A stretch of 39,930 nt of DNA from positions 1-39,930 of the IMG/VR virus record IMGVR_UViG_3300025131_000119. The stretch is one strand, 5' to 3'. This document shows positions 14,838 to 39,495 of the stretch, one piece after another. The stretch comes from a virus. The first letter of the stretch is position 1, and each line of letters starts with the position of its first letter. The notes beneath the pieces were generated by a model. That model saw only the letters and a program-made list of their open reading frames with translations. It did no database searches and was not told the origin of the DNA. The position numbers were made by a program, and so were the translations under genes.

Positions 14838-16040
14838 TTGTTAGTCCAAACCTTAGACGATAAAAAACACTGTGTCGGTATATACCACGACGGCAAACTA
14901 ATCTATGACTGCGAGGAGTTTGACTTCGACGCTGTATCTGCGACTTGGAACTACAATCCTGCTTTTTCACAAAAAGACGCTCTCATTGCCTCTCTATTCG
15001 TCGGCGGCAAATCCTTAAATGAAGTTTGCCCTGATTTTCTTAGACACCGCTGGGACACCATTAGCACCCGCCTGAACGCTTTCTATAAGTCATTTTCCAC
15101 TGCCAAAATAAGCTTGGATATCAATTGCTTCTTTGACCTTGTTCCTCAACGATTTTTGTTAGAATACTGCGAGGTCAAGAATAAAATTACAGATCACATT
15201 GTTAAGACACACACCAAACCTGCGAACTATGACTTCCTCCGTTCTTTGGCGGAGTTGACTTATGACATCAGCCAACAAAAGTTAAATGTTGATTACTCGG
15301 AGATCGCCCGCGACAGCCATCAACTAAAGGTACGCAACTTCCTTAAGAAGTCCAAATACACCAAACCGCACATCAACTACAATATGTGGGGCACGAAGAC
15401 TGGACGCATGACGACTTATAAGAGTTACTTTCCAATCCTCACGCTTGACAGCGAATATCGCTCTATTATCAAACCGACAAACGATTACTTCGTGGAGCTT
15501 GATTACAATGCAGCGGAACTTCGTGTTCTGCTTGGGCTCGGCGGTAAGCAGCAACCCACTGAGGATCTTCACATCTGGAACTTAAATAACATATATCGTG
15601 GAAACGGAACAAGAGATGAAGCAAAGAAGCGCATCTTCTCTTGGCTTTACAATCCTCAATCAAAAGATTATGCACCGCGCCGCTTTTATGATCGCGAGGG
15701 CATCTTAAGAAAATATTGGAATGGGCAAGTTGTCATTACTCCGATGGATCGTGTAATCAGTGCGGACAAACACCACGCATTAAACTATTTAATACAGAGT
15801 ACAACCAGTGACATTGTGTTGTCCAGAGCATTTAAAATTGCAGAGAAACTAAAAAATAAAAATTCTTTTATTTCTTTCACACTTCATGATAGTATAGTTA
15901 TAGACTTTGACGATACTGAGCGTGAATGTGTCCAAGAGTTGTTAGAGATGTTTTCTCAAACTCCTTTTGGAAAGTTTCAGGTTAACTTAAGTGCGGGCAA
16001 GTCATATGGGGATATGAGGAGGATTGAATGGACACAGTAA
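14838..16040 (+). CDS. Minimal family A (Pol I-like) DNA polymerase
   Basis: Three catalytic motifs of family A polymerases are present in order. Motif A is VELDYNAAELRVLLGL with metal-binding D222. The O-helix motif B is RDEAKKRIFSWLYNP, keeping R259, K263, F267 and Y271 of RxxxKxxxFxxxY. Motif C is FTLHDSIVIDF with H350-D351. At 400 residues it is far shorter than E. coli Pol I (928) or T7 polymerase (704): there is no 3'-5' exonuclease domain and only a reduced thumb region. The start is TTG (14838), because a stop lies just upstream in frame. It may do gap filling or repair, since a full DnaE is encoded at 32307. The last 13 nt overlap the tubulin-like gene. Confidence 0.85.
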   Translation: MLVQTLDDKKHCVGIYHDGKLIYDCEEFDFDAVSATWNYNPAFSQKDALIASLFVGGKSLNEVCPDFLRHRWDTISTRLNAFYKSFSTAKISLDINCFFDLVPQRFLLEYCEVKNKITDHIVKTHTKPANYDFLRSLAELTYDISQQKLNVDYSEIARDSHQLKVRNFLKKSKYTKPHINYNMWGTKTGRMTTYKSYFPILTLDSEYRSIIKPTNDYFVELDYNAAELRVLLGLGGKQQPTEDLHIWNLNNIYRGNGTRDEAKKRIFSWLYNPQSKDYAPRRFYDREGILRKYWNGQVVITPMDRVISADKHHALNYLIQSTTSDIVLSRAFKIAEKLKNKNSFISFTLHDSIVIDFDDTERECVQELLEMFSQTPFGKFQVNLSAGKSYGDMRRIEWTQ

Positions 16041-16864
16041 TCGGGCTTGGAAAAGCTGGTTGTGCTATTGCAGACAAGTTTGCACAATATCCTCAATATA
16101 AGACCTTTAAGATTGACTCCGAAGGTCTTGATCCTAAAAGCAAGAACTGCCATTTGCTAAAAAAACAAGACAGCCCCGAGAAATACGAGAAAGCCGTCCG
16201 CTCGATGAAGACATTCTTTGGCAGAACCACAGATAATGTCCTATTTGTATTGTCTGGCTCTGGCATGATCTCCGGTGCCACACTTCAAATTTTAAAGAAC
16301 CTCCGAGGAAAGAAAGTTAATATTCTTTATATCAAGCCAGATATGGAATTCTTGGGACACACGAACATCCTCCAAGAGCGAGTAGTAAGAAATGTTTTAC
16401 AAGAGTATACTCGTTCCGGTGTGTTCAATCGTATTTTTCTTGTAGATAACAAAAAAGTAGAAGAAGTCCTGGGCGATGTCCCGATTATTGGCTACTATGA
16501 TAAGCTAAATGAACTGATTGTCTCCACTATTCACATGGTTAATGTCTACGATCACCAGAAAGCGATCCATGCGACCCCATTTGATAAGGCAGATACAACA
16601 CGCATTTCAACATTCGGTATTGTAAATGTGGACGAGGGCAAAGAAAAGTTATTTTTTTCTCTTGACAATGTTCGAGAGAAGTGTTATTATTATGCTATCA
16701 ACTCAAAAGCATTAGAGACAGACGGAAAACTTTTGCGAACACTAACTGACAATATCAACAAGAACATTGGCAAAGACGTTCGAGCAGGGTTCCAAGTTTA
16801 CTCTACCTCTTATGAACAAAACTACGGGTACTTGGTGGCAAACACTGAGTTAACGAACAATTAA
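16028..16864 (+). CDS. Divergent tubulin/FtsZ-like GTPase
   Basis: The 278-residue protein follows the FtsZ/tubulin order. A T1-like loop VIGLGKAGCAIADKF (4-18) opens it. Next come a strand and Gly-rich loop VLFVLSGSGMISGATLQIL (71-89) where FtsZ has GGGTGTG, and KVNILYIKPDMEFLG (96-110) like FtsZ's VGVVTKPF-FEG. A strand ending FLVDNKK, an H7-like helix LNELIVSTIHMV (160-171) and a T7-like loop PFDKAD follow; D186 and D189 keep the D-x-x-D spacing of FtsZ's catalytic loop. A short second domain (190-270) completes it. It is shorter than FtsZ (about 380) and has no C-terminal tail. GAGGAGG precedes the ATG inside the polymerase gene, so the two are co-expressed. Filament formation is inferred, not visible. 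Confidence 0.68.
   Translation: MDTVIGLGKAGCAIADKFAQYPQYKTFKIDSEGLDPKSKNCHLLKKQDSPEKYEKAVRSMKTFFGRTTDNVLFVLSGSGMISGATLQILKNLRGKKVNILYIKPDMEFLGHTNILQERVVRNVLQEYTRSGVFNRIFLVDNKKVEEVLGDVPIIGYYDKLNELIVSTIHMVNVYDHQKAIHATPFDKADTTRISTFGIVNVDEGKEKLFFSLDNVREKCYYYAINSKALETDGKLLRTLTDNINKNIGKDVRAGFQVYSTSYEQNYGYLVANTELTNN
16662..16690 (+). promoter_or_regulatory. Sigma70-like promoter inside the tubulin-like gene
   Basis: TTGACA (16662-16667), a 17-nt spacer and TATTAT (16685-16690) lie within the coding sequence. It could drive the small membrane protein gene and SSB. A chance match within coding DNA is possible. Confidence 0.4.
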
Positions 16865-17234: not shown

Positions 17235-17999
17235 ATGGGAATTGATTTAGATAAAATGAAGCAGCGCAGGGCTGCACTACAAGGAAAAGGCGGCGGCAAC
17301 CGCGATACATTCTGGCGTCCACAAGATGGCGAACAGACTATTCGTATTGTTCCTACCGCTGACGGCGATCCCTTTAAGGATTTCTGGTTTCACTACAACG
17401 TAGGAAACAACCCAGGCTTCCTCAGTCCAAAGAAGAACTTTGGCGAAGAGGATCCACTGAACGACTTTGTTCGGAAGCTTTTTAACGAGGGCACCGAAGA
17501 AAGTATTAAAATGGCGAAGTCGCTTATGGCACGTCAAAGATTTTTCTCACCCGTACTTGTACGAGGTGAGGAAGATAAGGGTGTTCGTATTTGGGGTTAT
17601 GGAAAACAAGTATATGAGCAATTGCTCAACCTTGTCCTTAATCCAGAATATGGAGATATTACCGATACTGACACAGGAACTGATCTTGTTCTTCATTATG
17701 GTAAGCCACCCGGAGCAAGTTTCCCACAAACGAAGCTTACTCCACGTCGTCGCTCTTCTGTCCTCTGTGATGAGGCAGTTGGTGGTGACGAACGATGCGC
17801 GGAATTTCTTGAAAGTATTCCAGAATTCGACACGCTCTTTGAGCGTAAAACGCCAGCAGAAGTAGGCGCTATGTTAGACGCATACCTGCTTGGTGAAGAA
17901 GGCACCAACGAGGGGACTGGTTCAACCACAACCCCTCCTCCCTCCACTGACACAGTGTCCTCTGTTGACGCTGCCTTCAACGAACTCATGGGAGCGTAA
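17235..17999 (+). CDS. Single-stranded DNA-binding protein, gp32-like
   Basis: The 254-residue protein has the layout of T4-type SSBs. The N-terminus is basic (IDLDKMKQRRAALQGKGGG). The OB-fold core starts with WRPQDGEQTIRIVPTADGDP and continues through FWFHYNVG and VRIWGYGKQVYEQLLNLVL (gp32 has KVFKYRFGKKIWDKI there). A Ser/Thr/Pro-rich acidic tail ends DAAFNELMGA, like the regulatory C-terminal tail of gp32 that binds replication partners. The zinc-binding Cys/His cluster of T4 gp32 is absent; only two Cys occur, late in the protein. AAGGAG precedes the ATG. UvsX follows, placing SSB and recombinase together. Confidence 0.78.
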   Translation: MGIDLDKMKQRRAALQGKGGGNRDTFWRPQDGEQTIRIVPTADGDPFKDFWFHYNVGNNPGFLSPKKNFGEEDPLNDFVRKLFNEGTEESIKMAKSLMARQRFFSPVLVRGEEDKGVRIWGYGKQVYEQLLNLVLNPEYGDITDTDTGTDLVLHYGKPPGASFPQTKLTPRRRSSVLCDEAVGGDERCAEFLESIPEFDTLFERKTPAEVGAMLDAYLLGEEGTNEGTGSTTTPPPSTDTVSSVDAAFNELMGA

Positions 18000-18062: not shown

Positions 18063-19187
18063 ATGAGAATGGCGAAAGCTAAAAATACAAAAGCTGGTAA
18101 ATTAAACTTATCTGATATGCGTGCCCTTATTAATAAAAGGGCTGGTCTGAATGTCGCTCACGACTTGACTGAACAAAACCCCACCGAGGTTAAAGAGTGG
18201 ATTCCAACTGGCTCTCGCTGGTTGGACTCGATTATTTGTCGTGGTAAACTTTCTGGCATCCCCGTTGGCAAAGTTGTTGAGATTGCAGGTCTTGAAGCAA
18301 CAGGCAAGTCCTATATGGCAGCCCAGGTCGCTGCGAATGCACAAAAGATGGGAATGGATGTTATTTATTTTGATTCAGAGTCAGCAATTGATCCTGGTTT
18401 TCTTGAGAAAGCAGGATGTGATTTAAGTAGCCTTCTCTATGTTCAGGCTGCCTCTGTTGAGTTTGTTTTGGAGACTATTGAAGACCTACTTGCGAACAAT
18501 GATAATCGTATGTTGTTTATTTGGGACTCGCTTGCACTCACACCTGCTATTTCAGACATTGAGGGCGATTTTAATCCCCAGTCCTCCATGGCTGTAAAGG
18601 CTCGTATTCTTGCAAAGGGCATGTCCAAGTTGACTGTACCCATTGCTAACTCGCAGTCTACTTTCTTAGTGTTGAACCAGTTGAAGTCAAACATCACTCG
18701 TTCACCCTCTGAGGCTATGACGACCCCTTATGTCACACCAGGCGGAAAGGCTATGATTTATGCGTACTCGCTTCGCATCTGGCTGACTGGGCGAAAAGCC
18801 AAGGCATCTTTTGTTACTGACGATAAGGGCTTCCGCATCGGTTCAGAGGTTAAGGTAAAGTTGGAGAAATCTCGCTTTGGTACTCAAGGTCGGCAATGTA
18901 ACTTCCGAATCCTTTGGGGAGATGAGATTGGCATTCAGGATGATGAAAGCTTGTTTGATGCAATCGCTGGCTCATCCAATTTGGTTCGCACAGGTGCCTG
19001 GTATACTCTCTTGGATTCCTCTGGGAACGCCTTGGGTGCGAAGTTTCAAGCAGCGAAGTGGACTGACCGAATGGCAGAAGAAGAATTCCGGTCAAGGGTC
19101 CATGAGATTATGGACGAGGAAGTTATTTATAAGTTTGACAAGCGCGTAGGAAACGCAGCAGATTTTTATGAAGAAAATGATGAATAA
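18063..19187 (+). CDS. uvsX: UvsX/RecA-family recombinase
   Basis: The 374-residue protein is a RecA-fold strand-exchange ATPase, close in length to T4 UvsX (391). Walker A is GLEATGKS (76-83). IYFDSESAID (101-110) matches the RecA segment with the catalytic Glu (E106). Walker B is MLFIWDSLAL (D155). FLVLNQLKSNI corresponds to the RecA segment leading to loop L1 and TTPYVTPGGKAM to the L2 region. The C-terminus is acidic (DFYEENDE). GGAG precedes the ATG by 5 nt. With the SSB upstream and the helicase later, it would support recombination-dependent replication and repair, as in T4. Confidence 0.93.
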   Translation: MRMAKAKNTKAGKLNLSDMRALINKRAGLNVAHDLTEQNPTEVKEWIPTGSRWLDSIICRGKLSGIPVGKVVEIAGLEATGKSYMAAQVAANAQKMGMDVIYFDSESAIDPGFLEKAGCDLSSLLYVQAASVEFVLETIEDLLANNDNRMLFIWDSLALTPAISDIEGDFNPQSSMAVKARILAKGMSKLTVPIANSQSTFLVLNQLKSNITRSPSEAMTTPYVTPGGKAMIYAYSLRIWLTGRKAKASFVTDDKGFRIGSEVKVKLEKSRFGTQGRQCNFRILWGDEIGIQDDESLFDAIAGSSNLVRTGAWYTLLDSSGNALGAKFQAAKWTDRMAEEEFRSRVHEIMDEEVIYKFDKRVGNAADFYEENDE

Positions 19188-19621: not shown

Positions 19622-19708
19622 GCTTGAGTGGTGGAATTGGTAGACACAAGGGACTTAAAATCCCTCGCCAGTATTGGCATGCGGGTTCGATTCCCGCCTC
19701 AAGCACCA
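19622..19708 (+). tRNA. tRNA-Leu (anticodon UAA)
   Basis: The cloverleaf folds cleanly. The acceptor is GCTTGAG (19622-19628) with CTCAAGC (19698-19704). The D arm contains GGAATTGGTAGAC. The anticodon stem AGGGA/TCCCT encloses loop CTTAAAA (anticodon TAA). A long variable arm typical of class II tRNAs follows, then T arm GCGGG-TTCGATT-CCCGC, discriminator A and an encoded CCA end. It reads UUA/UUG leucine codons, which an AT-rich phage uses heavily. The nuclease gene begins 8 nt after the CCA. Confidence 0.96.
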
Positions 19709-19716
19709 TCTATATT

Positions 19717-20679
19717 ATGAAACGACTATTAGTAATTGACGCTCTCAACTTGATGTTCCGAAACTACATCGTGAACCCAAGTTTATCTACAAACGGACAA
19801 CCCATTGGAGGACTTAAAGGTTTCCTCCAGTCTCTCCAGAAGCTTATCAGGGAAACAAAACCTGACCAAGTTGTCATCTGTTGGGATGGTGAAGGTGGCA
19901 GCCAAAGACGAAAGTCACAAAATAAGGGCTACAAAGAAGGTCGCAAGCCTATTCGCTTGAACCGCGATATTCGCAACCTAACTGAAAACGAAGAGATTTC
20001 TAATAAGATCTGGCAACAGACACGCCTCGTTGAGTATCTTAACGAACTGCCGATTGTCCAGTTGATGCTACCCGCTGTTGAGGCAGACGATATTATTAGT
20101 GTTGTCGTACAGCACCCAAGCTTTGCTGGATGGCAAAAAGTTATTGTCTCATCAGACAAAGATTTCTTTCAGTTGTGTGACGGTGAAACCATTGTCTTTC
20201 GACCCATCCAGAAGCAAATCATCAACCAGACGGGGCTTGTGGAACAACATGGCATTCATCCAAAAAACTTTGCCCTTGCCAGAGCCATCGCAGGAGACAA
20301 GTCAGACAATCTTCCAGGCGTTGGAGGTGTCGGGCTCCCGACAATCTCAAAGCGTTTTCCGTTCTTAGCTGAAGATGTCTCATACGACATTGACACATTA
20401 ATGAAGTATTCCAAAGAACATGCAGGTAAAGTCAAGGCATACACGAATGTACTTGAAAAACGAGCAGTGGTGGAAGAGAATTACAGGCTCATGCAGCTTT
20501 ACATACCCTCAGTTAGTGTACAGGGTAGACAAAAGATCAATTATGCACTTGGCAACTTTAAACCAGAATTTGCCAAAACAAATGTAAAGGCAATGATGAT
20601 TGAAGATGGATTTGGTGTTGTGAACTTCGTCGATATGTATGCTTGGATGAATAAGATTGTAGCAGATTCCCGAATATAA
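19717..20679 (+). CDS. 5'-3' nuclease, T4 RNase H / FEN-like
   Basis: The 320-residue protein is a flap-endonuclease-type enzyme that would remove RNA primers and 5' flaps. Metal-binding residues of the family are visible: LLVIDALNLMF (D8), VVICWDGEGG (D57), PAVEADDIIS (E122, D124, D125) and VIVSSDKDFFQL (D147, D149). The helix-hairpin-helix region is RAIAGDKSDNLPGVGGVGLP. T4 RNase H is 305 residues. The ATG at 19717 is chosen because the family N-terminus starts there and the frame upstream is the tRNA. No Shine-Dalgarno fits, since only 8 nt separate tRNA and start codon, so after tRNA processing the mRNA would be nearly leaderless. Confidence 0.9.
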   Translation: MKRLLVIDALNLMFRNYIVNPSLSTNGQPIGGLKGFLQSLQKLIRETKPDQVVICWDGEGGSQRRKSQNKGYKEGRKPIRLNRDIRNLTENEEISNKIWQQTRLVEYLNELPIVQLMLPAVEADDIISVVVQHPSFAGWQKVIVSSDKDFFQLCDGETIVFRPIQKQIINQTGLVEQHGIHPKNFALARAIAGDKSDNLPGVGGVGLPTISKRFPFLAEDVSYDIDTLMKYSKEHAGKVKAYTNVLEKRAVVEENYRLMQLYIPSVSVQGRQKINYALGNFKPEFAKTNVKAMMIEDGFGVVNFVDMYAWMNKIVADSRI

Positions 20680-26028: not shown

Positions 26029-27393
26029 TTGAACTCGCAAGAACAAACTAGTTTTAGCAAATACGGCAAGTCTTTTCAAGAGGGTCTTGCTGCCCTTATA
26101 CTACAAGATAGGGCTTTTTCAGACCAGATCCAAGAGGTATTGGAGACGGACTATTTTGAACTAAAATACTTGCAAGTATTCGTCGGCAAGATTTTTGATT
26201 ATAAAAAGGAATATAATGTCCACCCAACTGCTAAGATTCTTTTGACGATTTTTCGTACTGGGATAGAAGAAGAAACAGATGCAGTAAAGAAACAGACCCG
26301 AGATTATTTTTCACGAATTTATAACACTGAAGTAAGAGATGAAGACTTCATCAAGAAAACATCGCTTGACTTTTGTCGGAAACAAACGCTAAAAGAGGCT
26401 ATGATTAAGTCCGTGGGTTTGCTGAAAAGTTCATCATATGATGAGGTTGCAAAAGTCATAACCGATGCTGTTAAGCTCGGCAGTGATTCAGATTTTGGAT
26501 ATGATTATGTAGCAGATTTTGAAAGACGATTTGAAATTAAAGCACGCGACCCAATTAGCACGGGCTGGGATGAAGTTGATCAACTTTGTCGAGGCGGTAT
26601 TGGAAATGGTGAGCTTGGTGTTGTGATTGCACCAACAGGTGCTGGCAAGTCTATGGTACTTGTGCATCTTGGAGCACAGGCGCTTTTACAAGGAAAGACG
26701 GTTGTACATTACACACTTGAGCTTCAAGATACCAGTATTGGCATTCGCTATGATAGCTGTATTACGGGTGTCTCCCTTTCCGAGATGCATTCTTTTAAAG
26801 AAATGATTTACGAAAAGGTACAGGAAGTACCTGGGCGTCTAATTATTAAAGAGTACCCAACAAAATCTGCCAGCACCCAGACAATTAAAAATCATCTGGA
26901 AAAACTTAAACAAAGAGATATAAAAGTTGACATGATTCTGGTAGACTATGGAGACTTATTGAGACCTGTTACCGTTACGAGAGAAAAGAGGCACGACTTG
27001 GAATCTATTTATGAAGAATTACGAGCAACAGCACAAGAAAATAAATGCCCAGTCTGGACTGCATCTCAAACTAATCGTTCAGGTCTAAATGCAGAAGTTG
27101 TAACCCTGGAGGCAATCTCCGAGGCATACAGCAAATGTTTTGTTGCTGACTTTATTTGTTCAGTATCCAGAACAATTGACGATAAGAACAATAATACAGG
27201 GCGGCTATTCGTTGCCAAGAACAGATTCGGTCCAGACGGGCTTGTTTATCCAGCCAAAATGGATCTCAGCAGAGTTAAGATTGATGTGCTGCCTTCGACA
27301 GGTGAAACAATCGGTGAAATTCAAGTTAATGCCGCGAAACAGCAGTCGGAAAAATTAAAAGAAAGATATAAACAATTCAAGGATGGGAAATAA
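26029..27393 (+). CDS. Replicative DNA helicase, DnaB/gp41-like
   Basis: The 454-residue protein (T4 gp41 is 475) has a helical N-terminal domain (1-165) and a RecA-type ATPase core. Walker A is APTGAGKS (201-208). TVVHYTLELQD holds the catalytic Glu region. Walker B is DMILVDYGDLL (D306), and WTASQTNRSG matches the polar-sensing motif H3. VAKNRFGPDGLVYPAKMD fits the arginine-finger/H4 region. It would unwind the fork 5'-3' with one of the phage polymerases. The start is TTG (26029), because AGGTG lies 5 nt upstream and the frame is stopped further up. It overlaps nrdJ by 11 nt. Confidence 0.9.
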   Translation: MNSQEQTSFSKYGKSFQEGLAALILQDRAFSDQIQEVLETDYFELKYLQVFVGKIFDYKKEYNVHPTAKILLTIFRTGIEEETDAVKKQTRDYFSRIYNTEVRDEDFIKKTSLDFCRKQTLKEAMIKSVGLLKSSSYDEVAKVITDAVKLGSDSDFGYDYVADFERRFEIKARDPISTGWDEVDQLCRGGIGNGELGVVIAPTGAGKSMVLVHLGAQALLQGKTVVHYTLELQDTSIGIRYDSCITGVSLSEMHSFKEMIYEKVQEVPGRLIIKEYPTKSASTQTIKNHLEKLKQRDIKVDMILVDYGDLLRPVTVTREKRHDLESIYEELRATAQENKCPVWTASQTNRSGLNAEVVTLEAISEAYSKCFVADFICSVSRTIDDKNNNTGRLFVAKNRFGPDGLVYPAKMDLSRVKIDVLPSTGETIGEIQVNAAKQQSEKLKERYKQFKDGK

Positions 27394-29794: not shown

Positions 29795-29852
29795 TTAAAA
29801 AAACGAGAAAATGACAATCCATCGTAACATGTACGACAAAAAAGGAAAAACT

Positions 29853-30137
29853 ATGCTACAGCCATTCAACAGGCACATTTTAATCACACCAGAGTTTATT
29901 GAGAGGGAGAAAAAGAAAGAACAATCAACAATTCTGCTCCCTGAAGACTATACAAAGGTAGAGGGTAAATACTGCACTGCCATTGTTCACAATACAGCCG
30001 AAGATTGCCGCTTTGATAATCTTCCGACTGGAAGTCGTATCCTTGTGGATCGTGCGATGATTGAAGAAGTGGAGCACAATGGAGAAAAGCACCACCTCAT
30101 CTTAGACAACTATGTAATTGCACAAGTCACGGAGTAA
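29853..30137 (+). CDS. GroES-like co-chaperonin (gp31-type)
   Basis: The 94-residue protein has the GroES pattern: FNRHILITPEFIEREKK, a mobile-loop region with STILLPEDYT (GroES has GGIVL), then GKYCTAIVHN, LPTGSRILVDRAMIEEV and a final LILDNYVIAQVTE strand. ATG 29853 is preferred over an ATG 42 nt upstream because AAGGA lies 7 nt before it. Like T4 gp31, it would cap host GroEL for folding of phage proteins such as the capsid protein. Similarity is by strand pattern, so a different beta-barrel is possible. Confidence 0.72.
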   Translation: MLQPFNRHILITPEFIEREKKKEQSTILLPEDYTKVEGKYCTAIVHNTAEDCRFDNLPTGSRILVDRAMIEEVEHNGEKHHLILDNYVIAQVTE

Positions 30138-38197: not shown

Positions 38198-38474
38198 AAA
38201 ACAACGACGTGCAAGAGATGCACAAATCCGAAAAGACGGAAATGAGGACTTAGCGGCACAAGTCGCCATGTTCGGTAAACTACCCGAAGAATGCACTGCC
38301 TGCGAGATCCCATATGATAAGAAAAATAAAGAGATGGCAACAACTTGGAACGTTGTTGTTCGTAAAGAGGACGAGGAAAACCCCGTTCGGCTTTATTGCC
38401 CACATTGTTGGAACACAGCACAAGAAGTTATAAGCAATTTCCTTAAAACCACGGAAGGGAAAGATGAACCTTGA
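38190..38474 (+). CDS. Zinc-ribbon protein (94 aa)
   Basis: The start MNRKQRRARDAQIRK is strongly basic. Two CxxC pairs (C35/C38 in ECTACEIPYD and C70/C73 in YCPHCWNT) are spaced like a zinc ribbon. A helical, acidic end follows. AGGA precedes the ATG, and the gene overlaps both neighbours (8 nt with the methyltransferase, 11 nt with the IMPDH-like gene). The fold suggests nucleic-acid or protein binding. No specific family is recognised. Confidence 0.72.
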   Translation: MNRKQRRARDAQIRKDGNEDLAAQVAMFGKLPEECTACEIPYDKKNKEMATTWNVVVRKEDEENPVRLYCPHCWNTAQEVISNFLKTTEGKDEP

Positions 38475-39495
38475 AACACACCTCACATTTGACGACGTTT
38501 TGCTGACACCTCAGTATAGCAACATTAAATCGCGGAGAGAGGTTACGCTAAATGCAGAATTATCAGAGGGCTTAGAGCTTCGTGTCCCGATTGTCTCAGC
38601 CCCTATGGATACTGTGTGCGGCGGTCTTATGGCAGCGAGATTGGCTGAATTCGGTGCGCTTGGTATTGTACATCGCTATAATACAATTGAGAAACAAACA
38701 GAGATTGTTTCCAAGGCATCGGAGGATGGATTAAAAAATGTTGGTGCTGCTATCGGTATTACAGGGGATTATATCGAACGCGCTGGTGCCCTTGTCGAAG
38801 CCGGAGTTAGTGTGCTCTGTTTGGATGTAGCTCACGGAGATCATATTTTGATGCATGTTGGTGCTCATAATATTGTTGATAAATTCGGTCATAAAGTGCA
38901 TATAATGGCTGGAAATATCGCCACCTATACTGGTGCTTTGACACTTGCACAGATTGGCGTGGATAGCCTCCGCGTAGGCATCGGCGGCGGGTCAATTTGC
39001 TCCACCCGCATTCAGACCGGACACGGAATGCCAACCCTTGCCTCCGTTATTGAATGTGTGCGAACAAAAGAAAAGTTTCCCGATCTTAAGATTATTGCTG
39101 ACGGTGGAATTAAGACATCTGGCGATATGGTTAAAGCTCTCGCCGCAGGAGCCGATTTTGTAATGGTTGGCTCTCTGCTGGCTGGCACAACAGAGGCACC
39201 TGGCGATGTGATTCACAAGGGCGGCGAGACATATAAATCTTATCGTGGAATGGCAAGCAAAGACGCACAGATGGATTGGCGAGGCAAGACCTCTTCCCTT
39301 GAAGGTGTTGCAACAGTGATTCCATATAAGGGTGCTGTCTTCCCCGTATTAGAGGGTCTTGAAAACGGAATCCGCAGTGGACTTTCCTATTCAGGTGCTC
39401 GCAACCTCCAAGAGCTTCGCGAGAACGCGCGATTCATTCGCCAGACTGCTTCAGGACTTTCCGAGAGTAATACGCACATTATGTGGAGATACTAG
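38464..39495 (+). CDS. IMP dehydrogenase / GMP reductase family enzyme
   Basis: The 343-residue TIM barrel opens [20 protein letters not shown] and has [14 protein letters not shown]. The catalytic loop is [19 protein letters not shown] with C179. Phosphate-binding [20 protein letters not shown] follows, then the flap-type [11 protein letters not shown] and [18 protein letters not shown] (about 490 aa) usually carries two CBS domains; none fits here, and the length and TGHGMP loop are closer to GMP reductase or CBS-less IMPDH. It would either push IMP toward GMP or recover IMP from GMP, altering purine pools during infection. The two activities cannot be separated by eye. Confidence 0.88.

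Follow-up and report, generated by a model that had tools for sequence, protein, structure and literature searches.

A divergent tubulin/FtsZ-superfamily protein family, a probable core part of the replication module in one phage lineage

The window analyzed here is a 39,930-nucleotide stretch of viral DNA (IMG/VR record IMGVR_UViG_3300025131_000119, positions 1 to 39,930), and our subject is a 278-residue protein encoded within it that we call TubL, a working name that we also use for its family. The TubL gene begins with an ATG on the plus strand and overlaps the gene for a small ("mini") family A DNA polymerase, the two open reading frames (ORFs) having 13 bases in common; a ribosome-site-like GAGGAGG lies inside the polymerase gene, five bases 5' of the TubL start codon (coordinates in Table 1). 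This overlapping ORF is present just as described in an earlier note, made from the sequence alone, which read its product as a divergent tubulin/FtsZ-like GTPase. In pairwise comparisons with seven relatives (76–97% protein identity), the ratio of nonsynonymous to synonymous substitution rates (dN/dS) is 0.03–0.07, with synonymous sites near saturation in several of the seven pairs. TubL is therefore under strong purifying constraint and behaves as a real gene.

Sequence searches with individual proteins returned little. For the window protein by itself there is no Pfam or PHROG match at E ≤ 1 and, at the same threshold, no tblastn match in phage records; searches of Protein Data Bank (PDB) sequences found nothing related, and a distant family member, L043, had no tblastn match among phages at E ≤ 5. 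The Pfam tubulin profile PF00091 finds nothing in the window record at E ≤ 10 and is positive in 13 of 14 control genomes. Relatives in environmental viruses are plentiful: a search with the one sequence found 49 related loci in viral contigs, and a profile search found at least 582 viral-contig stretches that encode them. Given that the window protein has no Pfam or PHROG match, many environmental phage genomes could therefore be re-annotated. Two contigs carry an interrupted TubL gene, one as two overlapping frames (L044:1863-2695) and one with an in-frame break (L084:7986-8837), reflecting either sequencing error or decay.

To place the family we used an alignment of 62 full-length members below 85% identity. 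AlphaFold2 run on this alignment gave a model of TubL with a predicted local distance difference test score (pLDDT) of 94.3 and a predicted template modeling score (pTM) of 0.91; 252 of its 278 residues reach a pLDDT of at least 90. The model has six strands with accompanying helices and a 20-residue central helix, followed by a C-terminal domain of four long strands, one short strand and two helices; this predicted order of elements fits that of FtsZ. When the model was compared with the PDB by Foldseek, the 50 rows listed were all FtsZ or TubZ (best E 7.9e-13), with FtsZ chains in most of them at TMq 0.67–0.76. The 50 entries listed by VIA-align were CetZ, TubZ, FtsZ or, by title, tubulin and microtubule structures. 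Its best match was CetZ (3zid_B; Z 24.6, root-mean-square deviation [rmsd] 3.0, 256 residues aligned), followed by TubZ (2xka_F; Z 23.5, rmsd 3.1, 275 residues), FtsZ (2r6r; Z 22.7, rmsd 3.6, 269 residues) and tubulin (Z 21.5, rmsd 3.2, 264 residues); Z differences below 1 count as ties, and the gap between CetZ and TubZ is about 1. Among predicted viral structures, the best match is A0A6J5RW92 (E 4.8e-13, TMq 0.79), ahead of a "cell division protein" (6.5e-11), an unnamed protein and PhuZ of phage Noxifer (9.4e-7, TMq 0.55). The tubulin/FtsZ-like fold proposed in the earlier note is what structure prediction returns.

The same note had pointed to profile searches as a second check, and there curated Pfam profiles did not place TubL. 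Across the 62 members, weak TrkA_N matches appear in 10 (best E 0.0097) and Tubulin matches in five (best E 0.019), a split that family searching alone could not decide. The lead of TrkA_N, together with the likeness of GLGKAGCAIA to a dinucleotide-binding turn, would suit an NAD(P)-dependent or other Rossmann-type enzyme or sensor that merely resembles FtsZ. We consider this very improbable, as the matches to CetZ, TubZ and FtsZ run the full length of the protein (256–275 of 278 residues, Z 22.7–24.6) with the C-terminal domain included, and proteins named FtsZ, tubulin or PhuZ lead the viral models, the first oxidoreductase appearing at E 5.8e-3. In its simplest form, a plain Rossmann dehydrogenase, the idea is ruled out by that full-length match, which takes in the long central helix and the C-terminal domain.

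A direct comparison of profiles points the same way as the model. Aligned by hhalign with an FtsZ profile of 31 collected sequences from which gappy rows had been dropped, the TubL profile scores 31.7 (E 0.0014 for one comparison). TubL residues 4–169 align with the FtsZ GTP domain from the T1 loop to helix H7: GLGKAG falls on T1, SGSGMISG on the T4 signature GGGTGTG, N141 on the asparagine of the FtsZ IPND motif, and N161 on an asparagine of H7. All controls score lower, including 100 column shuffles (maximum 24.7), the reversed profile (16.0) and six decoy families of the same phages (polymerase, UvsX, gp32, exonuclease and two others; at most 20.4). Because the fold matches are joined by a profile score above all shuffles, the reversed profile and the decoys, we regard membership in the tubulin/FtsZ superfamily as settled, with very little room for doubt. 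Assignment of TubL to FtsZ, TubZ, PhuZ or CetZ proper is not supported, and we place it in no family that is defined by GGGTG(S/T)G.

The sequence elements on which the earlier note relied (GLGKAG, SGSGMISG, KPDMEFLG, LNELI and D-x-x-D at residues 186–189) are all found in the window protein, and their conservation was counted over 124 aligned rows, 123 of them distinct since the window protein occurs twice. Outside T1 the most constant feature is VLQEYxRS, in which Q125, Y127, R129 and S130 are invariant (124/124); we suggest that it may be a surface that meets a partner. N141 and N161, which align with asparagines of FtsZ in T6 and H7, are putative guanine contacts. The D-x-x-D motif holds for the window protein and fails as a family feature: an acid stands at 189 in 95 rows, at 186 in 64 and at one or the other in 109, with both present in 50. 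The T7-like region is also compact, and no H8 helix is seen in the model. The compact T7, the missing H8 and the variable acids at 186 and 189 make GTP hydrolysis by TubL uncertain. Judged from conservation of the putative site, GTP is probably bound by most members.

Both asparagines are present in 111 of the 124 rows and absent together in 12, N141 alone being lost in the one remaining; 11 of these 12 rows also lack a T4 glycine. On a quick tree made without the site columns, several long branches of which were flagged, N141 changes three times, N161 twice and G79 eight times. Joint loss of the asparagines is what a shared ligand site would be expected to show, with two or three events that cannot be significant; a test on independent pairs has two to three pairs only, putting significance out of reach. 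L043, a member without either asparagine, is predicted to have the same fold (pLDDT 93.8; Z 24.5 to CetZ), and its gene keeps its place 3' of a polymerase gene. In a separate divergent group (L209, L211, L215, L216, L217, L219, L221 and L223), GSS(Y/F)SSNY replaces the T4 glycines and both asparagines are kept.

We surveyed viral contigs with the polymerase as bait and examined the best 80 of 558 confirmed loci, taking reading frames from stop to stop. TubL is the next gene downstream of a polymerase of about 400 residues, on the same strand, in 78 of these loci; the other two end 18 and 788 bases past the polymerase, so that all 78 testable loci have TubL. This is stronger support for a link to replication, which the earlier note had suggested from a single genome, than that note could have known. 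The TubL frame overlaps the polymerase match or starts within 27 bases of it in 63 of the 78, and a gap of 217–766 bases separates the two in 15. Among loci found with TubL itself and long enough to tell, the usual order on one strand is an unknown gene, the mini polymerase, TubL, gp32, UvsX and an exonuclease. TubL is single-copy in 16 of 16 long records (65–204 kb). The ten longest TubL records each encode one DnaE-type polymerase and one mini family A polymerase near TubL, and none of these ten has a family B polymerase at E ≤ 0.001. Because a DnaE-type enzyme is present in each and family B in none, the mini polymerase is unlikely to be the main replicase; together with the separate exonuclease it would probably amount to a split polymerase I, which may finish lagging-strand fragments.

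This setting bears on the possibility that TubL is an FtsZ mimic which, by joining or capping the filaments of the host protein, halts division during infection. TubL belongs to the same superfamily, and FtsZ is a known binding target of phage proteins such as T7 gp0.4 and lambda Kil. The TubL gene, however, is fixed in a replication block rather than placed among small host-takeover genes, and its low dN/dS and single copy fit a core gene, making host FtsZ an unlikely target.

A homologous block occurs in a sister lineage comprising Flavobacterium phage immuto (160 kb), Microcystis phage Mel-JY01 (190 kb) and a 484-kb uncultured phage, where the genes are mini polymerase, a protein that we call slot-B, gp32, UvsX, exonuclease and helicase. 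Slot-B, of about 130–150 residues, is encoded directly 3' of the polymerase in immuto and Mel-JY01; in the 484-kb phage the two genes are separated by other reading frames. It is 41–46% identical between immuto and the other two phages, and family searches gave weak, unconvincing matches only. Slot-B served as bait for a second survey of viral contigs, which confirmed 522 relatives. Of the best 80 loci, 78 have a polymerase no more than 600 bases upstream and 79 have gp32 downstream, the remaining locus not being testable for gp32; none of the 80 has TubL. Conversely, a search for slot-B at E ≤ 1 detected it in immuto and Mel-JY01 and found it neither in the window nor in ten long TubL records. 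We considered whether slot-B might be a shrunken TubL, but a weak hidden Markov model match (0.034, from a set of two sequences) failed a profile test: with 76 distinct sequences the score was 20.1, exceeded by three of 100 shuffles (up to 23.6) and by a fourth at 20.2. At the level of sequence profiles, slot-B and TubL are not detectably related, and 130–150 residues are too few for a tubulin. That the slot has two mutually exclusive occupants does not prove, but does suggest, that both proteins can perform some task linked to the mini polymerase; replacement of TubL by slot-B fits such a task better than a cytoskeletal one.

On our reading of these observations, the TubL proteins form a new, divergent family within the tubulin/FtsZ superfamily and probably belong to the core of one phage lineage's replication module. 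As to what TubL does, the reading that we favor, at a probability of roughly 0.5, is that it serves as a scaffold or polymerase partner where the phage replicates. TubL would probably be made in step with the mini family A polymerase whose gene precedes it, and would most likely scaffold or partner that enzyme, with gp32, UvsX, the separate 5'-3' exonuclease and the DnaE replicase acting alongside. GTP would probably be bound by most members, either as a switch or as a structural ligand; a minority keep fold and gene position although the putative nucleotide site is gone. A more specific version, which we offer tentatively and consider doubtful, makes TubL a fixed part of the replisome: an accessory subunit of the mini polymerase, switched by GTP in most members and GTP-free in one set, in the operon slot that an unrelated small protein fills in the sister lineage.

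Several points weigh against the partner reading. The HH probability of the TubL–FtsZ profile match is only 17.7%, and the canonical T4 signature GGGTG[ST]G occurs in none of the 124 rows, the window protein having SGSGMISG in its place. We retain the superfamily placement despite the missing signature because it rests on fold and homology; tubulin/FtsZ paralogues without the motifs are described in PMC2875224. Twenty rows that lack a T4 glycine keep both asparagines, and the putative site therefore does not decay only as a unit. Contact between TubL and the polymerase is something we infer; adjacency of genes indicates co-production at best, and sharing a slot is not proof of sharing a job. 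Finally, because the close structural relatives FtsZ, TubZ, CetZ and tubulin are all filament-forming, the simpler default for TubL would be a filament as well.

TubL may be a dynamic GTP-driven filament in the manner of PhuZ or TubZ that positions or segregates phage DNA or replication centers, its adjacency to the polymerase reflecting joint production of replication genes. This remains a strong contender because the structural relatives CetZ, TubZ, FtsZ and tubulin all polymerize, and the two asparagines kept in 111 of 124 rows and the acid at 186 or 189 in 109 would suit it as well. Polymerization of phiKZ TubZ is described in PMC3678025. The varying T7 acids (95 rows at 189, 64 at 186), the lack of H8 in the model, the loss of both asparagines in 12 rows, the sister-lineage slot holding a protein of about 130–150 residues, and the absence of a detectable profile relation to phiKZ PhuZ (score 18.8, within the shuffle range) fit a filament poorly, and we hold it to be possible but less probable than a role beside the polymerase.

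Table 1. Features of the TubL locus and the wider window, with slot-B genes of the sister lineage
Feature	Position	Strand	Evidence or remark
Mini family A DNA polymerase, 400 aa	14838..16040	+	PF00476 E 8.3e-13, alignment
GAGGAGG, ribosome-site-like	16016..16022	+	inside polymerase gene
TubL, tubulin/FtsZ-fold protein, 278 aa	16028..16864	+	ATG-started ORF, fold, profile, dN/dS
T1-type loop GLGKAGC, residues 6-12	16043..16063	+	G6, G8 in 124/124, G11 in 113/124; aligned with FtsZ T1
T4-type loop SGSGMISGA, residues 76-84	16253..16279	+	G77 118, G79 98, S82 111 of 124 rows
VLQEYTRS, residues 123-130, end of fifth helix	16394..16417	+	family signature
N141, putative guanine contact, T6 region	16448..16450	+	111/124 rows; FtsZ IPND alignment
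Central helix H7, residues 156-175	16493..16552	+	model secondary structure
N161, putative guanine contact, start of H7	16508..16510	+	112/124 rows; FtsZ H7 alignment
T7-like loop, residues 176-192	16553..16603	+	model; acid counts
Small protein, one N-terminal hydrophobic stretch, 91 aa	16872..17147	+	no Pfam/PHROG family match
gp32-type single-strand DNA-binding protein	17235..17999	+	Pfam/PHROG match
UvsX-like recombinase	18063..19187	+	Pfam/PHROG match
tRNA-Leu (taa)	19622..19708		just 5' of exonuclease gene
5'-3' exonuclease	19717..20679	+	PF02739; likely start MKRLLVIDALN at 19717, listed ORF start 19585
DnaB-like helicase	26029..27393	+	PF03796 E 3.1e-18
Cpn10 (GroES-like) co-chaperonin	29811..30137		weak match, 21.2 vs cut-off 21.1 bits
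DnaE-type polymerase III alpha, 1143 aa	32307..35738	+	tblastn matches to annotated phage DnaE proteins
IMP dehydrogenase	38464..39495		PF00478 E 2.9e-105
Slot-B, Immutovirus	L298:1346-1801		
Slot-B, Mel-JY01	L299:7675-8064		
Slot-B, LR756508	L300:7776-8171		

Around TubL in the window, the family A polymerase, gp32-type and UvsX neighbors named in the earlier note were borne out by Pfam and PHROG matches. Its membrane protein was borne out in part: the small ORF directly 3' of TubL is present, and its membrane nature is read from one hydrophobic stretch only. Counterparts of this small protein were matched mainly in closer relatives. The listed start of the exonuclease ORF is probably false because the frame from there runs through the tRNA-Leu gene. 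A DnaE-type replicase and a mini family A polymerase stand beside genes of gp32 and UvsX type. The same phage that encodes TubL, putatively GTP-binding, encodes an IMP dehydrogenase, an enzyme of guanine nucleotide synthesis, and a weakly matched co-chaperonin. A scan of species genomes, made with one peptide pattern and limited in reach, gave one confirmed match, in a WOR-3 bacterium. We rejected this bacterium as a host: the matching 5-kb phage piece (L125:7697-12736) is flanked on either side by a run of 100 N in a scaffolded metagenome-assembled genome, and the match therefore says nothing on the host. The piece, in the "chromosome" CP070664.1, probably entered this species-representative genome through a binning error.

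Through a common family bound to a polymerase gene, the tubulin fold would be linked directly to DNA replication. Members without the nucleotide site offer a natural test of the fold's role without GTP, and since one operon slot is occupied by either of two proteins, function could be tested by complementation in a cultured phage. Our literature search found PhuZ, TubZ and FtsZ-like families and no tubulin-fold family joined to a phage polymerase; it covered few subscription journals and no bioRxiv preprints, so novelty is unproven.

PhuZ and TubZ are known tubulins of phages or plasmids (PMC3678025, PMC7824862, PMC7162821); the tubulins named in the literature consulted, PhuZ and TubZ among those of phages, build filaments that place or move DNA. 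Divergent FtsZ families are described in cells (PMC2875224). TubL differs from each. CetZ is its best structural match, yet the two are 15% identical, CetZ has 342 residues against 278, and TubL lacks GGGTG[ST]G and sits in phage replication operons. FtsZ shares the T1-to-H7 profile alignment; TubL departs from it in its changed T4, compact T7 and length. TubZ, a partition tubulin of plasmids and phages with 414 residues, is 18% identical to TubL and differs in context, TubL lying 3' of a DNA polymerase gene. TubZ has a TubR-type DNA-binding neighbor and centromere repeats, whereas the listed neighbors of TubL are replication genes, no search having been aimed at TubR or repeats. PhuZ of the nucleus-forming phages is likewise a phage tubulin, but the Noxifer protein matches the TubL fold less well than FtsZ chains do, phiKZ PhuZ, as one sequence against the TubL profile, gives an E of 0.089, and the phiKZ gene adjoins genes of unknown function and a phosphatase rather than a polymerase. 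The closest viral model, A0A6J5RW92, annotated "FtsZ Cell division GTPase" in an uncultured Caudovirales phage, has 452 residues. In gene arrangement the counterpart of TubL is slot-B of Immutovirus and Mel-JY01, which, like TubL, is encoded 3' of a mini family A polymerase, with gp32 further downstream, within a homologous block.

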